Positions 13,515 to 18,224 of a stretch of 29,762 bases of DNA are shown here, one piece after another. The stretch is from a virus: positions 1 through 29,762 of the IMG/VR virus record IMGVR_UViG_3300030012_000629, one strand, 5' to 3'. The notes under the pieces were generated by a model. The model searched no databases, was not told the origin of the DNA, and worked only from the letters and a program-made list of their open reading frames with translations. Each line of letters starts with the position of its first letter. Position 1 is the first letter of the stretch. Both the position numbers and the translations under genes were made by a program.

Positions 13515-13614
13515 TCCTTACGAGGATAAATATGAGTGCGGAGTATGTGGCAAAGATATGGAAGAACAAAAACCATATTGTTGCATAGATTGTTTTAGAG
13601 CTGATATGAGATGA
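13495..13614 (+). CDS. Small zinc-ribbon-like protein
   Basis: 39 residues with 'CGVCGK' (C15, C18) and 'CCIDC' (C29, C30, C33), a spacing suited to one tetrahedral zinc site. Such mini zinc ribbons bind DNA, RNA or a protein partner. The TGA overlaps the exonuclease start as ATGA, linking expression of the two. Start chosen at ATG 13495 because it is the only one before the first cysteine pair. Confidence 0.55.
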   Translation: MFIYLDNPYEDKYECGVCGKDMEEQKPYCCIDCFRADMR

Positions 13615-14378
13615 TACAATTATTGAATGGGGAATATTACGAAGAAGAAGATCTAATTAATAAAATGTATAATGATGATTTTTATTATGGTGAACTTAAT
13701 CATTTAGCATTATCTAGTTCCAGTATTAAGCTTTTATTAAGTAGCCCTAAAACTTATAAGTATGTTTTAAAGTATGGCAATGCACAAACACAAGCCCTAA
13801 GGGATGGGTGGTTATTTCACACAGCAATTTTAGAGCCAGATCTATTTGAGAAACAAATCTTTGTAGATGTGCAATCAAAGAACACGAAGGCTTATAAGTT
13901 AGCAAAAGAAAAATATGGAAAAGTATTTACAATAAAAGAAAAGAAAGATGCAGAGAAACTAGCAGATGCTTTTTTAAGAAATGAAACAGCTTTAAAAATG
14001 ATTAATGACAGTATATTTGAACAGCCTATGATTAAAATAATAGATGGTTACCCTTTTAGGGGCAAGGCAGATGTATTGGGAAGATATTATATTTGTGATC
14101 TGAAAACTACAACTGATATAAAAAACTTTCATCATAGTGCAAATAGATATTCTTATGATGTGCAATGTTATTTATATTGTAATTTATTTGATAGATCTTA
14201 TAAAGATTTTAAATTTGTAGTTATTGATAAGGGCAGTTTAGATATTGGGGTGTGGGATTGTAGCGAAGATTTTTATTTAAGAGGTCAGGAAAAAGTAAAG
14301 AAAGCATTAGAGATATTTGAAACTTATTTTATTGATGGGGTAGATATAGATAACTATTATATTAGTGGAACATTATGA
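13611..14378 (+). CDS. RecE-like PD-(D/E)XK exonuclease (DUF3799 type)
   Basis: 255 residues. 'LSSSSIKLLLSSPKTYKY', 'LRDGWLFHTAILEP' (H70), 'GKADVLGRYYICDLKTT' (D154, D163, K165) and 'DVQCYLYC' (QxxxY, Q185/Y189) give the full RecB/RecE-type nuclease signature. Reaction: degrades a DNA strand from an end to leave ssDNA for annealing or recombination. No annealase was recognised next to it; the SSB-like and NinG-like genes are candidate partners. The last 29 codons have a diverged twin about 480 bases downstream, part of a recombination scar. ATGA overlaps on both sides. Confidence 0.8.
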   Translation: MIQLLNGEYYEEEDLINKMYNDDFYYGELNHLALSSSSIKLLLSSPKTYKYVLKYGNAQTQALRDGWLFHTAILEPDLFEKQIFVDVQSKNTKAYKLAKEKYGKVFTIKEKKDAEKLADAFLRNETALKMINDSIFEQPMIKIIDGYPFRGKADVLGRYYICDLKTTTDIKNFHHSANRYSYDVQCYLYCNLFDRSYKDFKFVVIDKGSLDIGVWDCSEDFYLRGQEKVKKALEIFETYFIDGVDIDNYYISGTL

Positions 14379-14656
14379 AAACAAAAGTAAAAACACCTGA
14401 ATATTATAATGGCGATAATGGATATACAGCAAAGCAAGTAGTGGATAACTTTGAATTAAATTACCATCTTGGCACAGCAGTAACTTATATACTTAGAGCA
14501 TATAAGAAACATAAAACACCTAATCAGGATTTACAAAAAGCAATAGATCATTTAACCTTTGAATTAGAAAAGTTAGAAAGAAAGGATCAATGGAGGGTGG
14601 ACCAATATAATAGGAACAGACACCCATCAGATCACATCATAGCAGGTACAGAATGA
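14375..14656 (+). CDS. DUF3310 protein (T7 gp1.7-like family)
   Basis: 93 residues matching DUF3310: 'YYNGDNGYTAKQVVDNFELNY', 'LGTAVTYILRAYKKHK' and 'DLQKAIDHLTFELEKLE'. T7 gp1.7, related to this family, has been described as a nucleotide kinase. The sequence shows no P-loop, so activity should not be assumed. Overlaps the exonuclease stop and the start of the broken methyltransferase (both ATGA). Confidence 0.7.
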   Translation: MKTKVKTPEYYNGDNGYTAKQVVDNFELNYHLGTAVTYILRAYKKHKTPNQDLQKAIDHLTFELEKLERKDQWRVDQYNRNRHPSDHIIAGTE

Positions 14657-14802
14657 TTTACAACCAAGATTGTATGGAGGCTATGAAAGATATGTCAGAC
14701 AATCAGTTTGACTTAGCTATTGTTGATCCTCCTTATGGTATTGATGTAACCAAAATGAATATGGGGGGTAGAAAAAGTAACCAAAGCAATAGAGACATTT
14801 GA
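14653..14802 (+). pseudogene. Truncated DNA methyltransferase (first ~40 codons)
   Basis: The frame gives 49 residues beginning 'MIYNQDCMEAMKDM' and including 'LAIVDPPYGIDV', the catalytic DPPY motif of N6-adenine/N4-cytosine methyltransferases. It then ends in a short unrelated tail and TGA. The methyltransferase-like part stops near 14770, exactly where sequence homologous to the exonuclease 3' end begins in another frame. The SAM-binding FxGxG motif is missing, so it cannot be active. It is the stump of a resident enzyme replaced by the one downstream. Confidence 0.8.
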
Positions 14803-14860
14803 AACATTTTTTATTAACGGAGCAGACTTAGATAGTTACTGCATAAAAGGAACTTTGTGA
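14771..14860 (+). pseudogene. Remnant of a second exonuclease gene (last 29 codons)
   Basis: Read from 14771 the frame gives 'EKVTKAIETFETFFINGADL' and ends '...YCIKGTL' TGA. The intact exonuclease ends 'EKVKKALEIFETYFIDGVDI...YYISGTL'. By hand count 19 of 29 residues and 68 of 90 bases agree, with no gaps. It is therefore a diverged homologue, not a recent copy. It lacks a start and the catalytic core. In both copies the stop overlaps the start of the next gene, preserving the donor's gene junction. Confidence 0.85.
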
Positions 14861-15507
14861 TACAAATAATAAATAAAGATTTTAGAGATTGTAAAATACC
14901 AAAAGGTTTGACTATTACAGATCCTCCTTACAATCAAGGTTATCATTACAACGGATATAAAGATAGAATCGTAGAAGATGATTATATAGATTTATTATCT
15001 AAAATACCCACTCCTTGTGTTATAATTCATTATCCTGAAGAAACAATAAATCTTTTACCTAAAGCGATAGGTGTAAAATGTGAACAAGTAGTATGTTGGG
15101 TTTACAATAGTAACACAGGTAAGCAAAGTAGATTAATAAGTTGGTGGGGATGCAAACCTGACTTTAGAAAAGTAAGACAACCTTATAAAAACTTAAACGA
15201 TAAACGAATACAAAAAAGAATAGCAGAGGGTAAGACAGGTGCAAAGATTTATGATTGGTGGAATATAAATCAAGTAAAAAATGTTAGTAAGGAAAAAACA
15301 GAACACCCTTGTCAGATACCTGAAGAAGTAATTGGCAAAATAATAAAAACTACAGCAGAAGAAAATCAAACAATAATTGATGTATTTGCAGGAAGTGGCA
15401 CAACAAGCAAAGTAGCTTATGATTTAGGTTATGATACTATAAGTTATGAGGTAGATAAAAAATATTGTGATATAATTAATAAAAGAATTTATGAGAGAGG
15501 CAAATAA
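14857..15507 (+). CDS. DNA methyltransferase (DPPY, N6-adenine/N4-cytosine type)
   Basis: 216 residues from GTG 14857, overlapping the exonuclease-remnant TGA. 'ITDPPYNQGYHY' (DPPY 22-25) precedes 'DVFAGSGTTSKVAYDLGYD' (177-183), giving the beta-class order, with 'EHPCQIPEEVIGKII' as the usual pre-motif-I helix. Reaction: SAM-dependent exocyclic amino methylation of A or C. No endonuclease partner is next to it, so it is an orphan, probably protecting against host restriction. No PC/ENV motifs of C5-methyltransferases are present. It arrived on a foreign segment flanked by two gene remnants. Confidence 0.82.
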   Translation: MIQIINKDFRDCKIPKGLTITDPPYNQGYHYNGYKDRIVEDDYIDLLSKIPTPCVIIHYPEETINLLPKAIGVKCEQVVCWVYNSNTGKQSRLISWWGCKPDFRKVRQPYKNLNDKRIQKRIAEGKTGAKIYDWWNINQVKNVSKEKTEHPCQIPEEVIGKIIKTTAEENQTIIDVFAGSGTTSKVAYDLGYDTISYEVDKKYCDIINKRIYERGK

Positions 15508-15592
15508 AATAGCAAAACATATTATAGATATATCAGGCATTGATGTATTTAAAAACACAAGAAAAAGAAAATATATTGAGGATGAAGAATAA
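15491..15592 (+). pseudogene. Remnant of a second DnaA-like gene (first ~30 codons)
   Basis: The ATG overlaps the methyltransferase end by 17 bases. The 33-residue frame contains 'DISGIDVFKNTRKRKYIE', which matches 'DLSGVDIFEESRSRKHTE' of the intact gene just downstream (8 of 16 identical from the shared SG), then stops after 'DEE'. It is the head of a homologous gene cut at about 15580, where the resident gene's own ATG takes over. It marks the right boundary of the imported methyltransferase segment. Confidence 0.7.
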
Positions 15593-16004
15593 AGAAATAA
15601 AAGACATAGTACAACTATTAAAAGATTTATCTGGGGTGGATATATTTGAAGAAAGCAGAAGCAGAAAACATACAGAGCCTAGATCTTTGTTTAATTTTAT
15701 ATTAAGGAATCATTATAATTTTACTTTATATGACATTAAAGATTTCTATAAAAGTATGGGTAAAAGTTATGATCACGCAACAGCTTTACATAGTTTAAAA
15801 AACTTTGAGGTATATAGAAAGTATAATAAAAAGTTAGATGAATGGTTTGATATTTTTAAGCAAAGATATACTGATGATGAATTAAAAAGATTAAAAAGAG
15901 AAACAATAAAACATAAGATAGATTACATTAGTGATGATTATGTAAATAGAATTTATAGGATAGTAAACCAGTTGCCTATTGAAAATTTAAATAAAAAAAA
16001 TTAA
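15582..16004 (+). CDS. DnaA domain IV-like DNA-binding protein
   Basis: 140 residues from ATG 15582 (MKNKEIKDIV). A longer reading from 15540 would begin with codons belonging to the remnant, so it is rejected. 'RSRKHTEPRSLFNFILRNHY', 'LYDIKDFYKSMGKSYDHATALHSLKNF' (shown by its ends) fits the DnaA C-terminal helix-turn-helix: basic start, 'xxRxxxxYxLR', then 'xxDHxTxLHxxxxx'. The AAA+ domain is absent. Inferred role: binding a phage origin or acting as a regulator. It stands next to a leader element and before the ParB-like gene. Confidence 0.6.
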   Translation: MKNKEIKDIVQLLKDLSGVDIFEESRSRKHTEPRSLFNFILRNHYNFTLYDIKDFYKSMGKSYDHATALHSLKNFEVYRKYNKKLDEWFDIFKQRYTDDELKRLKRETIKHKIDYISDDYVNRIYRIVNQLPIENLNKKN

Positions 16005-16025: not shown

Positions 16026-16604
16026 AAACCTATTAAAATAAATATAGATAAAATAAAAAACAACCCTGAAAATCCTAGGGTTATAAAAGATTATAAATTT
16101 AACAAACTTGTAAAAAGCATTAAGGATTTTCCAGAAATGATGCAGTTGCGACCAATTGTTGTGGATGAGAATAATATTATACTGGGTGGCAATATGCGTT
16201 ATAAGGCTGCAGTACAGGCAGGTTTAAAAAATGTTTATGTAATACAGGCAGATGATTTATCAGAAAAGCAAAAAAAAGAATTTGTTATTAAAGATAACAG
16301 TAGCTTTGGAGAATGGGACTGGGATGTATTGGCAAACGAATGGGAGTTAAATGAATTAAAGGAATGGGGATTAGATCTTCCTAGAATATATTTTGATGAG
16401 GACGAGGAGCCTGAACTTGACAAAGATATATTCGACCAGGAATTAGATACCTATATAAACGCAAAGGTTAAACAGATAACTTTATATTTTAATGCAGATG
16501 AGTATGAAAAAGCAGTTAAAGATTTAGAAACAATAAGGCAAAAGGAAAGCCTTACGGACAACACACAGGCATTTAAATTTTTAATTAATAAATATGGATT
16601 ATAA
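16023..16604 (+). CDS. ParB/Srx-fold protein of the base-modification cassette
   Basis: 193 residues. The ParB N-terminal fold is clear: 'NPENPRVIKDYKFNKLVKSI', 'LRPIVVDENNIILGGNMRYKA' (the GGNMR loop corresponds to the GE(R)R-type nucleotide/catalytic loop), and 'KEFVIKDNSSFGEWDWDVLANEW'. The C-terminal part ('KQITLYFNADEYEKAVKDLE') looks like a separate small domain. Known: ParB-fold proteins in phages include nucleases and CTP- or DNA-binding regulators. Next to a TET/JBP enzyme and its glycosyltransferase, it may nick DNA or guide modification; that is inference. It overlaps the glycosyltransferase by 11 bases. Confidence 0.75.
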   Translation: MKPIKINIDKIKNNPENPRVIKDYKFNKLVKSIKDFPEMMQLRPIVVDENNIILGGNMRYKAAVQAGLKNVYVIQADDLSEKQKKEFVIKDNSSFGEWDWDVLANEWELNELKEWGLDLPRIYFDEDEEPELDKDIFDQELDTYINAKVKQITLYFNADEYEKAVKDLETIRQKESLTDNTQAFKFLINKYGL

Positions 16605-17337
16605 AATCGCAATACCATCATATAAGCGACCAGAAACAATAAAAAAGAAAACATTAAAGCTATTATCTGATTATAATATCAGCAAAAATCTAATTACAAT
16701 TTTTGTAGCAGATAAAGAAGAAGAAAAAACATATAAAGAAAGCCTTGAGGAAGATTATAAAATTGTTGTAGGTGTGCCCACTATTGGCAAACAAAGAAAC
16801 TTTATTGAGAAGTATTATCAAGAGGGAACAAGGCTGATGATGTTTGATGATGATATAGAAAAGGTGCAAAGAAAAAAAAAGAATAAGTTAATAGATGTTG
16901 AGGATTTAGAAAAAGAAGTATTTTATAAAGGATTTAATGCTTGTGAGCAAATCAATGCTAAAACCTTTGGTATTTATGCAGCAGGTAATCCCTATTTTAT
17001 GAAGAATAGAATATACACTAAGCTGTGTTATATTATTGCTTCAATGTTTGGTGTTATTGTAGATCACGATAAATTTTTAGATCGTGTTACAAATCACGGA
17101 GAAGATTATGAATACAGCATTAGGCAATACATAAAAAATAAAAGGCTTGTAAGATTAGATTACTTAACAGTTAAATCAAATTATTACAAAGAAGAAGGAG
17201 GGCTACAAGAGATTAGAACAAAACAATATGTATATGATTCTATATATCAAATACAAAGTATGTTCCCTGAATTTTGTAAAATGTATATTAGAAAAACAAC
17301 AGGTAATGCTGAATTAAGATTAAAAGATATGCGATGA
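16594..17337 (+). CDS. TET-associated GT-A glycosyltransferase (TAGT-like)
   Basis: 247 residues. The start 'YKIAIPSYKRPETIKKKTL' and 'GVPTIGKQRNFIEKYY' are GT-A nucleotide-sugar binding segments; 'LMMFDDDIEK' (D85-D87) is the DXD metal site; 'NHGEDYEYSIRQ' (168-178) supplies the ED acceptor-side motif. The whole pattern fits the glycosyltransferases that accompany phage TET/JBP oxygenases. Expected reaction: transfer of a sugar to a hydroxymethylated base in DNA. The stop overlaps the oxygenase start (ATGA), indicating coupled translation. Sugar donor unknown. Confidence 0.78.
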   Translation: MDYKIAIPSYKRPETIKKKTLKLLSDYNISKNLITIFVADKEEEKTYKESLEEDYKIVVGVPTIGKQRNFIEKYYQEGTRLMMFDDDIEKVQRKKKNKLIDVEDLEKEVFYKGFNACEQINAKTFGIYAAGNPYFMKNRIYTKLCYIIASMFGVIVDHDKFLDRVTNHGEDYEYSIRQYIKNKRLVRLDYLTVKSNYYKEEGGLQEIRTKQYVYDSIYQIQSMFPEFCKMYIRKTTGNAELRLKDMR

Positions 17338-18224
17338 AAAGAATAGATGTAGATAGAAAACCGATTGACAAAAAAGATTACATAAGAAGAACAGCGATGT
17401 TATCAGATGTAAGCAGACATATTAAAGATGATGTAATCATATATCACAACGATAAACCTATTTTGCTTTACAGAATTTTGCCAAAGAAACCAAATGATGT
17501 AAGATGGGCTGTCAAGAATATTAAATACGGAACAGGAAAAAGAACACACGGATTAGTCAACACAAGTGCAGTATTTGGCTACAACCCAAGACAAGAAAAC
17601 AAACACGATTATTGTAGTGCAAGTGCAATGGGTACTTCGCATCCTAAACAACATTATGTTATCAGCAGATTTGCAGAAGAAGTATCAAAATATTATCACG
17701 AGTTTTTTCCTGATACATATTACGAACACAAAAATAAATTAAAAGATAAAGTAAAAGATCAATGGGTAATTAAAAACAGTGTATTTACTAGTGGTATAGT
17801 AAACAAAAATAATCAACTGAAATATCATTATGATTCAGGTAACTTTAAAAATGTTTACAGCAATATGGTTGTGTTTAAAGGAGATGTGCAAGGTGGACAT
17901 TTGGTTATACCAGAACTAGACATATCATTAGAGGTGGCAGATAATTCATTAACAATATTTGATGGACAAGATTTACTACACGGAGTTAGCCCTATTGAAT
18001 ATAAAAACAATAAGGCTTATAGGTATAGTGTTGTTTATTATTCACTAGAAAGAATGTGGCAATGCAACACAATAGAAGAAGAGATTGACCGAATAAGAGA
18101 AAAGAAAATGGTGCGTGAAGCTAATCGATTAGATCCTGATCATTTAGATTCATTACGACAAAGAAAAAAAGAAGCAAAAGATTATAAAGATAGTATTGAA
18201 AATGAACAAAACCGAACAGCATAA
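17334..18224 (+). CDS. TET/JBP-family 2-oxoglutarate/Fe(II) DNA base dioxygenase
   Basis: 296 residues. 'LKYHYDSGNF' gives the H-x-D iron pair (H165, D167), 'GQDLLHGVSP' the distal iron ligand (H216), and 'AYRYSVVYYSLERMW' the 2-oxoglutarate-binding Arg (R230). 'KGDVQGGHLVIPELD' and 'DNSLTIFDGQ' are core double-stranded beta-helix strands typical of phage TETs; 'GKRTHGLVNTSAVFGYNPR' (68-86) matches their N-terminal element. Reaction: hydroxylation of 5-methylcytosine, or of thymine in JBP-type enzymes. The C-terminal ~50 residues are a charged helix. The end overlaps the terminase small-subunit start, placing modification just before packaging. Confidence 0.85.
   Translation: MKRIDVDRKPIDKKDYIRRTAMLSDVSRHIKDDVIIYHNDKPILLYRILPKKPNDVRWAVKNIKYGTGKRTHGLVNTSAVFGYNPRQENKHDYCSASAMGTSHPKQHYVISRFAEEVSKYYHEFFPDTYYEHKNKLKDKVKDQWVIKNSVFTSGIVNKNNQLKYHYDSGNFKNVYSNMVVFKGDVQGGHLVIPELDISLEVADNSLTIFDGQDLLHGVSPIEYKNNKAYRYSVVYYSLERMWQCNTIEEEIDRIREKKMVREANRLDPDHLDSLRQRKKEAKDYKDSIENEQNRTA

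Follow-up and report, generated by a model that had tools for sequence, protein, structure and literature searches.

Evidence for the gain of a methyltransferase gene from another phage lineage, with three gene stumps at the borders of the donor block

The viral record analysed here contains a block of 810 bases that is almost identical to a segment of another phage, L022 (IMGVR_UViG_3300030102_001239), and this block carries a complete methyltransferase gene (MT2) between fragments of genes that were cut at its two ends. As far as genome comparison can tell, this shows the gain of MT2 from an L022-like donor. We consider it highly probable that the donor segment was joined non-homologously, at two 8-bp microhomologies, into a gene slot of a resident-type phage, where it truncated a first methyltransferase gene (MT1). 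The window, by which we mean the whole stretch of 29,762 bases that was analysed, contains tail, lysis, replication, DNA-modification and head genes. The original prediction had described a methyltransferase swap by a foreign segment of ~0.8 kb; all the locus elements that it named were located, with coordinates about as it gave them (Table 1).

Table 1. Coordinates of the features of the methyltransferase locus in the window
Feature	Position	Strand	Evidence
Resident RecE-like exonuclease, intact (DUF3799 / exonuclease VIII)	13611..14378	+	PF12684 E 5e-17; phrog_412 E 1e-35
DUF3310 gene	14375..14656	+	PF11753 E 1e-4, slightly below the Pfam cut-off
3' tail of the DUF3310 gene	14585-14656		Stretch also present in the gene preceding MT1 in donor-type phages
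MT1 stump	14653..14777	+	Beta-class DPPY methyltransferase cut after its first 41 codons, followed by microhomology; phrog_67 E 6e-10
Left junction microhomology AGAAAAAG	14770..14777	+	Common to L102 MT1 (GGTAGAAAAAGAAAC) and L022 exonuclease (AAAAGAAAAAGTAAC)
Donor block	14770..15579	+	809/810 identical to L022 5914-6723; flank identity at chance level
Donor exonuclease stump, 29 C-terminal codons and stop	14771..14860	+	97% aa identity to the L022 tail; 66% (19/29) to the resident tail
MT2, complete predicted beta-class amino methyltransferase, GTG start	14857..15507	+	PF01555 E 2e-24; 216/216 residues identical to L022 MT2
DnaA-like stump, 33-codon ORF with donor DnaA-like head	15491..15592	+	100% aa identity to L022 over 30 residues (first 30 codons)
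Right junction microhomology ATATTGAG	15572..15579	+	Common to L022 DnaA-like coding sequence (AAATATATTGAGATGAGG) and L006 resident leader (AAAAATATTGAGGATGAA)
Resident DnaA-like gene, intact (DnaA domain IV-like)	15582..16004	+	PF08299 E 5e-5, under the Pfam cut-off

The donor block and MT2

L022 was recovered by scanning IMG/VR with the MT2 protein, which it encodes without a single residue change. Its exonuclease, MT2 and DnaA-like genes are all intact, adjacent and overlapping by a few bases, and the block is collinear with them. As predicted, the block is foreign: it matches L022 at 809 of 810 bases, the sole difference being at position 14789, and in the 200 bases on each side the identity is 46/200, random pairs averaging 59/200. 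With only one substitution in 810 bp, the event must be very recent. The limits of the block, first placed at about 14771 and 15580, could be fixed to the base at 14770 and 15579, with 8 ambiguous bases per end. Base composition, which had been proposed as a check of foreign origin, is alike inside the block (GC 0.287) and in its flanks (0.27-0.29) and does not tell them apart. The MT2 cassette is also found in the donor-type contigs L023 to L028, at 85-90% DNA identity, and the gene order expected of the donor, exonuclease-MT2-DnaA-like, is indeed present in L022, L023 and L025 to L028, as well as in L024 at lower identity. These comparisons make a recent horizontal transfer from one phage lineage to another the probable source of the block. 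A recent tandem duplication of the exonuclease tail was rejected, as it had been from the start: the two tails are alike at 68/90 bases and 19/29 residues, exactly as first counted by hand, and the second copy is the donor's.

The three stumps announced at the junctions are all there: MT1 is left with 41 codons, the donor exonuclease with 29, and the donor DnaA-like gene with its head. The MT1 start (14653-14775) runs into 8 foreign codons and ends at a stop at 14802. Could these stumps be conserved small genes or regulatory elements of an old arrangement? The MT1 and DnaA-like stumps are ORFs with start codons, and the latter extends over the start codon that follows it. However, no start-to-stop ORF is listed for the donor exonuclease tail, which lies in another frame than the MT1 stump, the arrangement is found in no relative, and the near-perfect match to L022 already refutes an old origin unless L022-like and window phages both carry the arrangement. 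We therefore find this explanation hardly credible and retain a recent insertion.

MT2 scores 87 bits against the PF01555 profile (cut-off 26.7) and carries the motif TDPPYN near residue 22, followed by DVFAGSGTT near residue 175, of its 216 amino acids; it is accordingly classed as a predicted beta-class amino DNA methyltransferase. The record has no other PF01555 gene, and no restriction partner lies beside it in the window. On the model of orphan phage methyltransferases, the most likely role predicted for MT2 is to shield the DNA of the phage against restriction by its host. In the searched set of annotated phage records, no MT2 relative exceeded ~53% identity; solved structures were only distantly related, and six scattered loci in bacterial genomes hold relatives. 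MT2 copies with 72-85% aa identity occur in many contigs of up to 335 kb, and at L088:1381-2013 and L029:1607-2239 MT2 lies upstream of a different exonuclease, with neither the exonuclease tail nor the DnaA-like head. The gene appears widely mobile, since it is found in these other contexts and in so many contigs. Further along the window (16594-18224), a TET-associated glycosyltransferase gene (PF20691) adjoins a TET/JBP-family oxygenase gene (PF12851), likely a DNA base hypermodification pair; a search of the record for a C5-cytosine methyltransferase gave none.

The recipient slot and the origin of the MT1 stump

Scans with the DnaA-like protein and the exonuclease of the window recovered seven resident-type contigs, L002 to L008, which match the window at 85-97% DNA identity and all lack the block. 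Their matches stop at the end of DUF3310 (14654-14656; L003 begins too late to show this gene) and resume from 15560-15562. The resident exonuclease is 96-99% identical in amino acids in L005, L006 and L004, and the DnaA-like protein 94-100% identical in L002-L006. The gene order in these phages is exonuclease-DUF3310-slot-DnaA-like-ParB. The slot is empty in L002, L004, L007 and L008 and holds a Dam-family methyltransferase in L005 and L006 (PF05869 E 9e-23); it is thus variable among close relatives and able to hold full genes. A second variable slot was observed between the DnaA-like and ParB-like genes, where some resident-type phages carry a gene for 183 aa (L005:6416-6967, L007:1212-1763, L008:6416-6967 and L003:535-1086; the L005 copy has no Pfam match) that is missing from the window and from L002/L004. 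The DnaA-like protein itself has 140 aa, a weak domain IV-like match and an NCBIfam DnaA score of 21 of 344 bits, and it does not show the AAA+ ATPase plus domain IV that define the chromosomal DnaA initiator. We regard its gene as coding for a small protein with a predicted domain IV-like region, not for a DnaA initiator.

Did the resident phage carry an intact MT1 before the block arrived? The original prediction had given the resident order with MT1 complete between DUF3310 and the DnaA-like gene, and this order was not recovered: with the stump and DUF3310 as queries, intact MT1 was absent from the slot of all resident-type contigs, and the DUF3310-based scan gave no further relative with MT1 there. 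With no intact MT1 in the slot of any relative, only one half of the proposed swap stands, the gain of MT2 from a named donor; we infer that MT1 was intact in the slot beforehand and that MT2 is expressed, and with this a functional replacement of MT1 by MT2 and an exchange of methylation specificity.

The protein of the stump is 90% identical to the intact MT1 of L102, and beyond codon 30, where the middle region starts, its DVTKMNMGGRK stretch is that of L102 and not that of L022. The MT1 head is closest to genes of the donor clade, in which MT1 sits downstream of the DnaA-like gene. The MT1 head and the DUF3310 tail together are 91% identical to L022 over 159 bp, and the matching upstream gene in L022 is a different one, dATP/dGTP diphosphohydrolase-like (PF18909), whose last 22 residues resemble the DUF3310 tail. 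From 14639 to beyond the MT1 start the window does not differ from L022 at any base, the first part of this common stretch (14639-14656) lying in the DUF3310 tail. Since the DUF3310 tail of the window is that of the resident L005 and is followed by identity to L022, MT1 joined the resident genome within the common stretch that begins at 14639. A crossover deep in the DUF3310 tail had been considered as the source of the MT1 head and was dropped, as L005, with its Dam-family gene, carries the tail of the window. MT1 would therefore have entered the resident genome before the block or together with it; a single donor carrying another MT1 allele may have supplied both at once, or two events may have followed one another.

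The single-donor history is a variant of our main proposal, with which it can be true at the same time, and we hold it possible, though rather doubtful. In this variant, template switching during one recombination or repair event, MT1 was never intact in the phage: copying would have passed from the resident DUF3310 tail to the start of a donor MT1, continued for ~120 bp, jumped back 1.6-1.7 kb inside the donor to its exonuclease tail, run through MT2 and then jumped to the resident leader. The position of MT1 downstream of MT2 in L022, the match of the DUF3310 tail and MT1 head to L022 described above, the lack of an intact MT1 in any resident-type phage and the microhomology at the joints, which suits such switching, are all in its favour. 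On the other hand, the slot can hold full genes, as in L005 and L006, and the 91% identity of the MT1 head contrasts with the 99.9% of the block. Past codon 30 the MT1 head departs from the L022 allele, so that a donor with a different allele is required.

The MT1 genes are themselves diverse. We compared the MT1 of L022 (L022:7561-8187) with 28 further MT1 proteins. Over these 29 distinct proteins the mean identity is 95% in the first 30 residues, 85% in the last 60 and only 42% in the middles (shuffled control, 22%); the set was selected by its conserved start, which biases the N-terminal figure and leaves the contrast between C-terminus and middle unbiased. At 60% identity the middles fall into at least 24 clusters. 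In 14 contigs with both genes, identity at third codon positions is 0.82 and 0.88 for the two MT1 caps against 0.70 for the exonuclease, which fits shared, recently exchanged ends flanking putatively swapped recognition regions. These phages seem to reach new specificities more often by exchanging the MT1 middle than by exchanging whole genes.

The joints and the insertion region of the donor clade

At the left joint, L102 MT1 (GGTAGAAAAAGAAAC) and the donor exonuclease (AAAAGAAAAAGTAACC) have the run AGAAAAAG in common; at the right joint, the donor DnaA-like gene (AAATATATTGAGATGAGG) and the L006 resident leader (AAAAATATTGAGGATGAA) have ATATTGAG. Both runs are 8 bp long, although the parents are proxies (L102, 88% identical in DNA, for MT1 and L006 for the leader) and the lengths may shift by 1-2 bases. 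In these AT-rich sequences a common run of at least 8 bp is expected at a random joint with a frequency of ~6e-4 on the left and ~7e-4 on the right. Given an 8-bp microhomology and no extended homology, both joints point to probable illegitimate, microhomology-mediated joining. Our proposal is thus the following. In a mixed infection or a prophage contact, an L022-like phage would have supplied a segment of ~810 bp around its exonuclease-MT2-DnaA-like cassette, and this segment would have been joined into the methyltransferase slot of a resident-type phage, on the left inside the MT1 gene of the slot and on the right in the leader directly upstream of the resident DnaA-like start codon. The outcome would be a phage that kept its essential resident genes, received an intact MT2 with about 88 bp of donor flank per side, and had its MT1 truncated after 41 codons.

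The main doubt is that both junctions are known from a single contig. An exact search found neither of them in a second IMG/VR contig, near-identical records possibly lying outside the searched set. Two co-occurring phages joined by the assembler, or fused into one molecule during whole-genome amplification, would equally give near-perfect identity to L022, and amplification chimeras have similarly short joints. However, such an artefact needs two joints within 810 bp, the 8-bp overlaps are far under the word sizes of k-mer assemblers, the block contains a real base difference from L022, and the MT1/DUF3310 joint on the left is a third seam with a separate history. We judge an artefact improbable.

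Is the donor junction a preferred site of insertion? Among 56 donor-clade contigs, a sample partly biased because some were retrieved with methyltransferase queries, 38 have the DnaA-like gene 0-12 bp from the exonuclease gene, with nothing inserted, and MT2 lies at the junction in seven, accompanied by an HNH gene in L024. GIY-YIG-type endonuclease-like genes occupy the junction in L188, L185, L152, L195, L211 and L229; the MUG113/T5orf172 profiles, which we take to belong to the GIY-YIG superfamily, were matched in runs on L188 and L152, and the other four are alike by eye. L187 has an HNH gene there, and L207, L218, L222 and L233 have other genes of unknown function. We interpret the junction, from this gene content, as an insertion hot spot. 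In L024 (4152-4697) MT2 is followed by a 42-bp piece of DnaA-like head that continues in frame into an HNH/NUMOD4/AP2 endonuclease gene, and then by the intact DnaA-like gene, an arrangement that we read as an independent analogous scar. Several unrelated cargo genes at the junction terminate in frame in the first DnaA-like codons (ERSK/ERGK stop).

A homing-type transfer, in which an intergenic endonuclease cuts at or near the slot and repair from the donor brings in MT2, is conceivable in view of the HNH genes found in place of or beside MT2 at sister-phage junctions (L187, L024, L125), of the GIY-YIG-type genes listed above and of the nearly equal donor flanks of MT2 (87 and 88 bp). Yet the content of the block is limited to the exonuclease tail, MT2 and the DnaA-like head, with no endonuclease gene; the resident has no exonuclease/DnaA-like junction to be cut; and homing normally joins through flanking homology, not through 8 bp. 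We consider this route unlikely. The broader idea that the exonuclease/DnaA-like region is a dedicated exchange site, where methyltransferases compete with intergenic endonucleases for one insertion point and, as cargo mobilised in trans by homing, exploit the breaks and repair that these cause to move from one phage lineage to another, is a speculation to which we give little weight. Microhomology-mediated joining of a donor segment remains our preferred reading.

Relation to known systems

Our literature search found no report of this locus. The event belongs to the known mosaicism of phages, of which it has left an exceptionally full footprint. As in the modular evolution of tailed phages by illegitimate recombination, the boundaries are sharp and non-homologous, the unit is gene-sized and the essential neighbours are kept. 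Unlike in typical mosaicism, the donor is known at 99.9% identity, the joints are resolved to 8 bp and three gene stumps remain, still to be cleared from the genome.

There is also a likeness to homeologous exchange of the Red/RecET type. According to PMC2327257, RecET has been reported to recombine at homologies of 5-13 bp; with its RecE-like exonuclease the phage possesses one half of a pathway of this kind, and its MT1/DUF3310 seam lies within a 72-bp stretch ~83% identical. The case differs in that the block junctions share only 8 bp and that searches of the record, possibly a fragment, recognised neither a RecT nor an ERF annealing protein.

The donor-clade junction resembles the sites of free-standing intergenic homing endonucleases in that it holds HNH or GIY-YIG genes in some phages, but the cargo here is a methyltransferase and the block carries no endonuclease gene. 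MT2 compares with the orphan N6-adenine/beta-class amino methyltransferases of phages (PF01555; phrog_67; M.RsrI and M.MboIIA are among the structural relatives), with the same motif order, the DPPY motif and no adjacent restriction partner. The MT1 genes, for their part, keep their ends and exchange their middle, as in the movement of target-recognition domains between restriction-modification genes; unlike these, MT1 is a free-standing short phage methyltransferase, with ~24 middles in 29 proteins.

Mosaicism is usually inferred long after the stumps have been deleted. Here the donor, the recipient type, the block limits and the joints are resolved, and the share of microhomology joining as against homologous exchange can therefore be read directly. 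Furthermore, the same region displays two routes of methylation change, the movement of whole methyltransferases between slots and the swapping of middles between conserved ends, so that the connection of methyltransferase turnover with host restriction can be put to the test.
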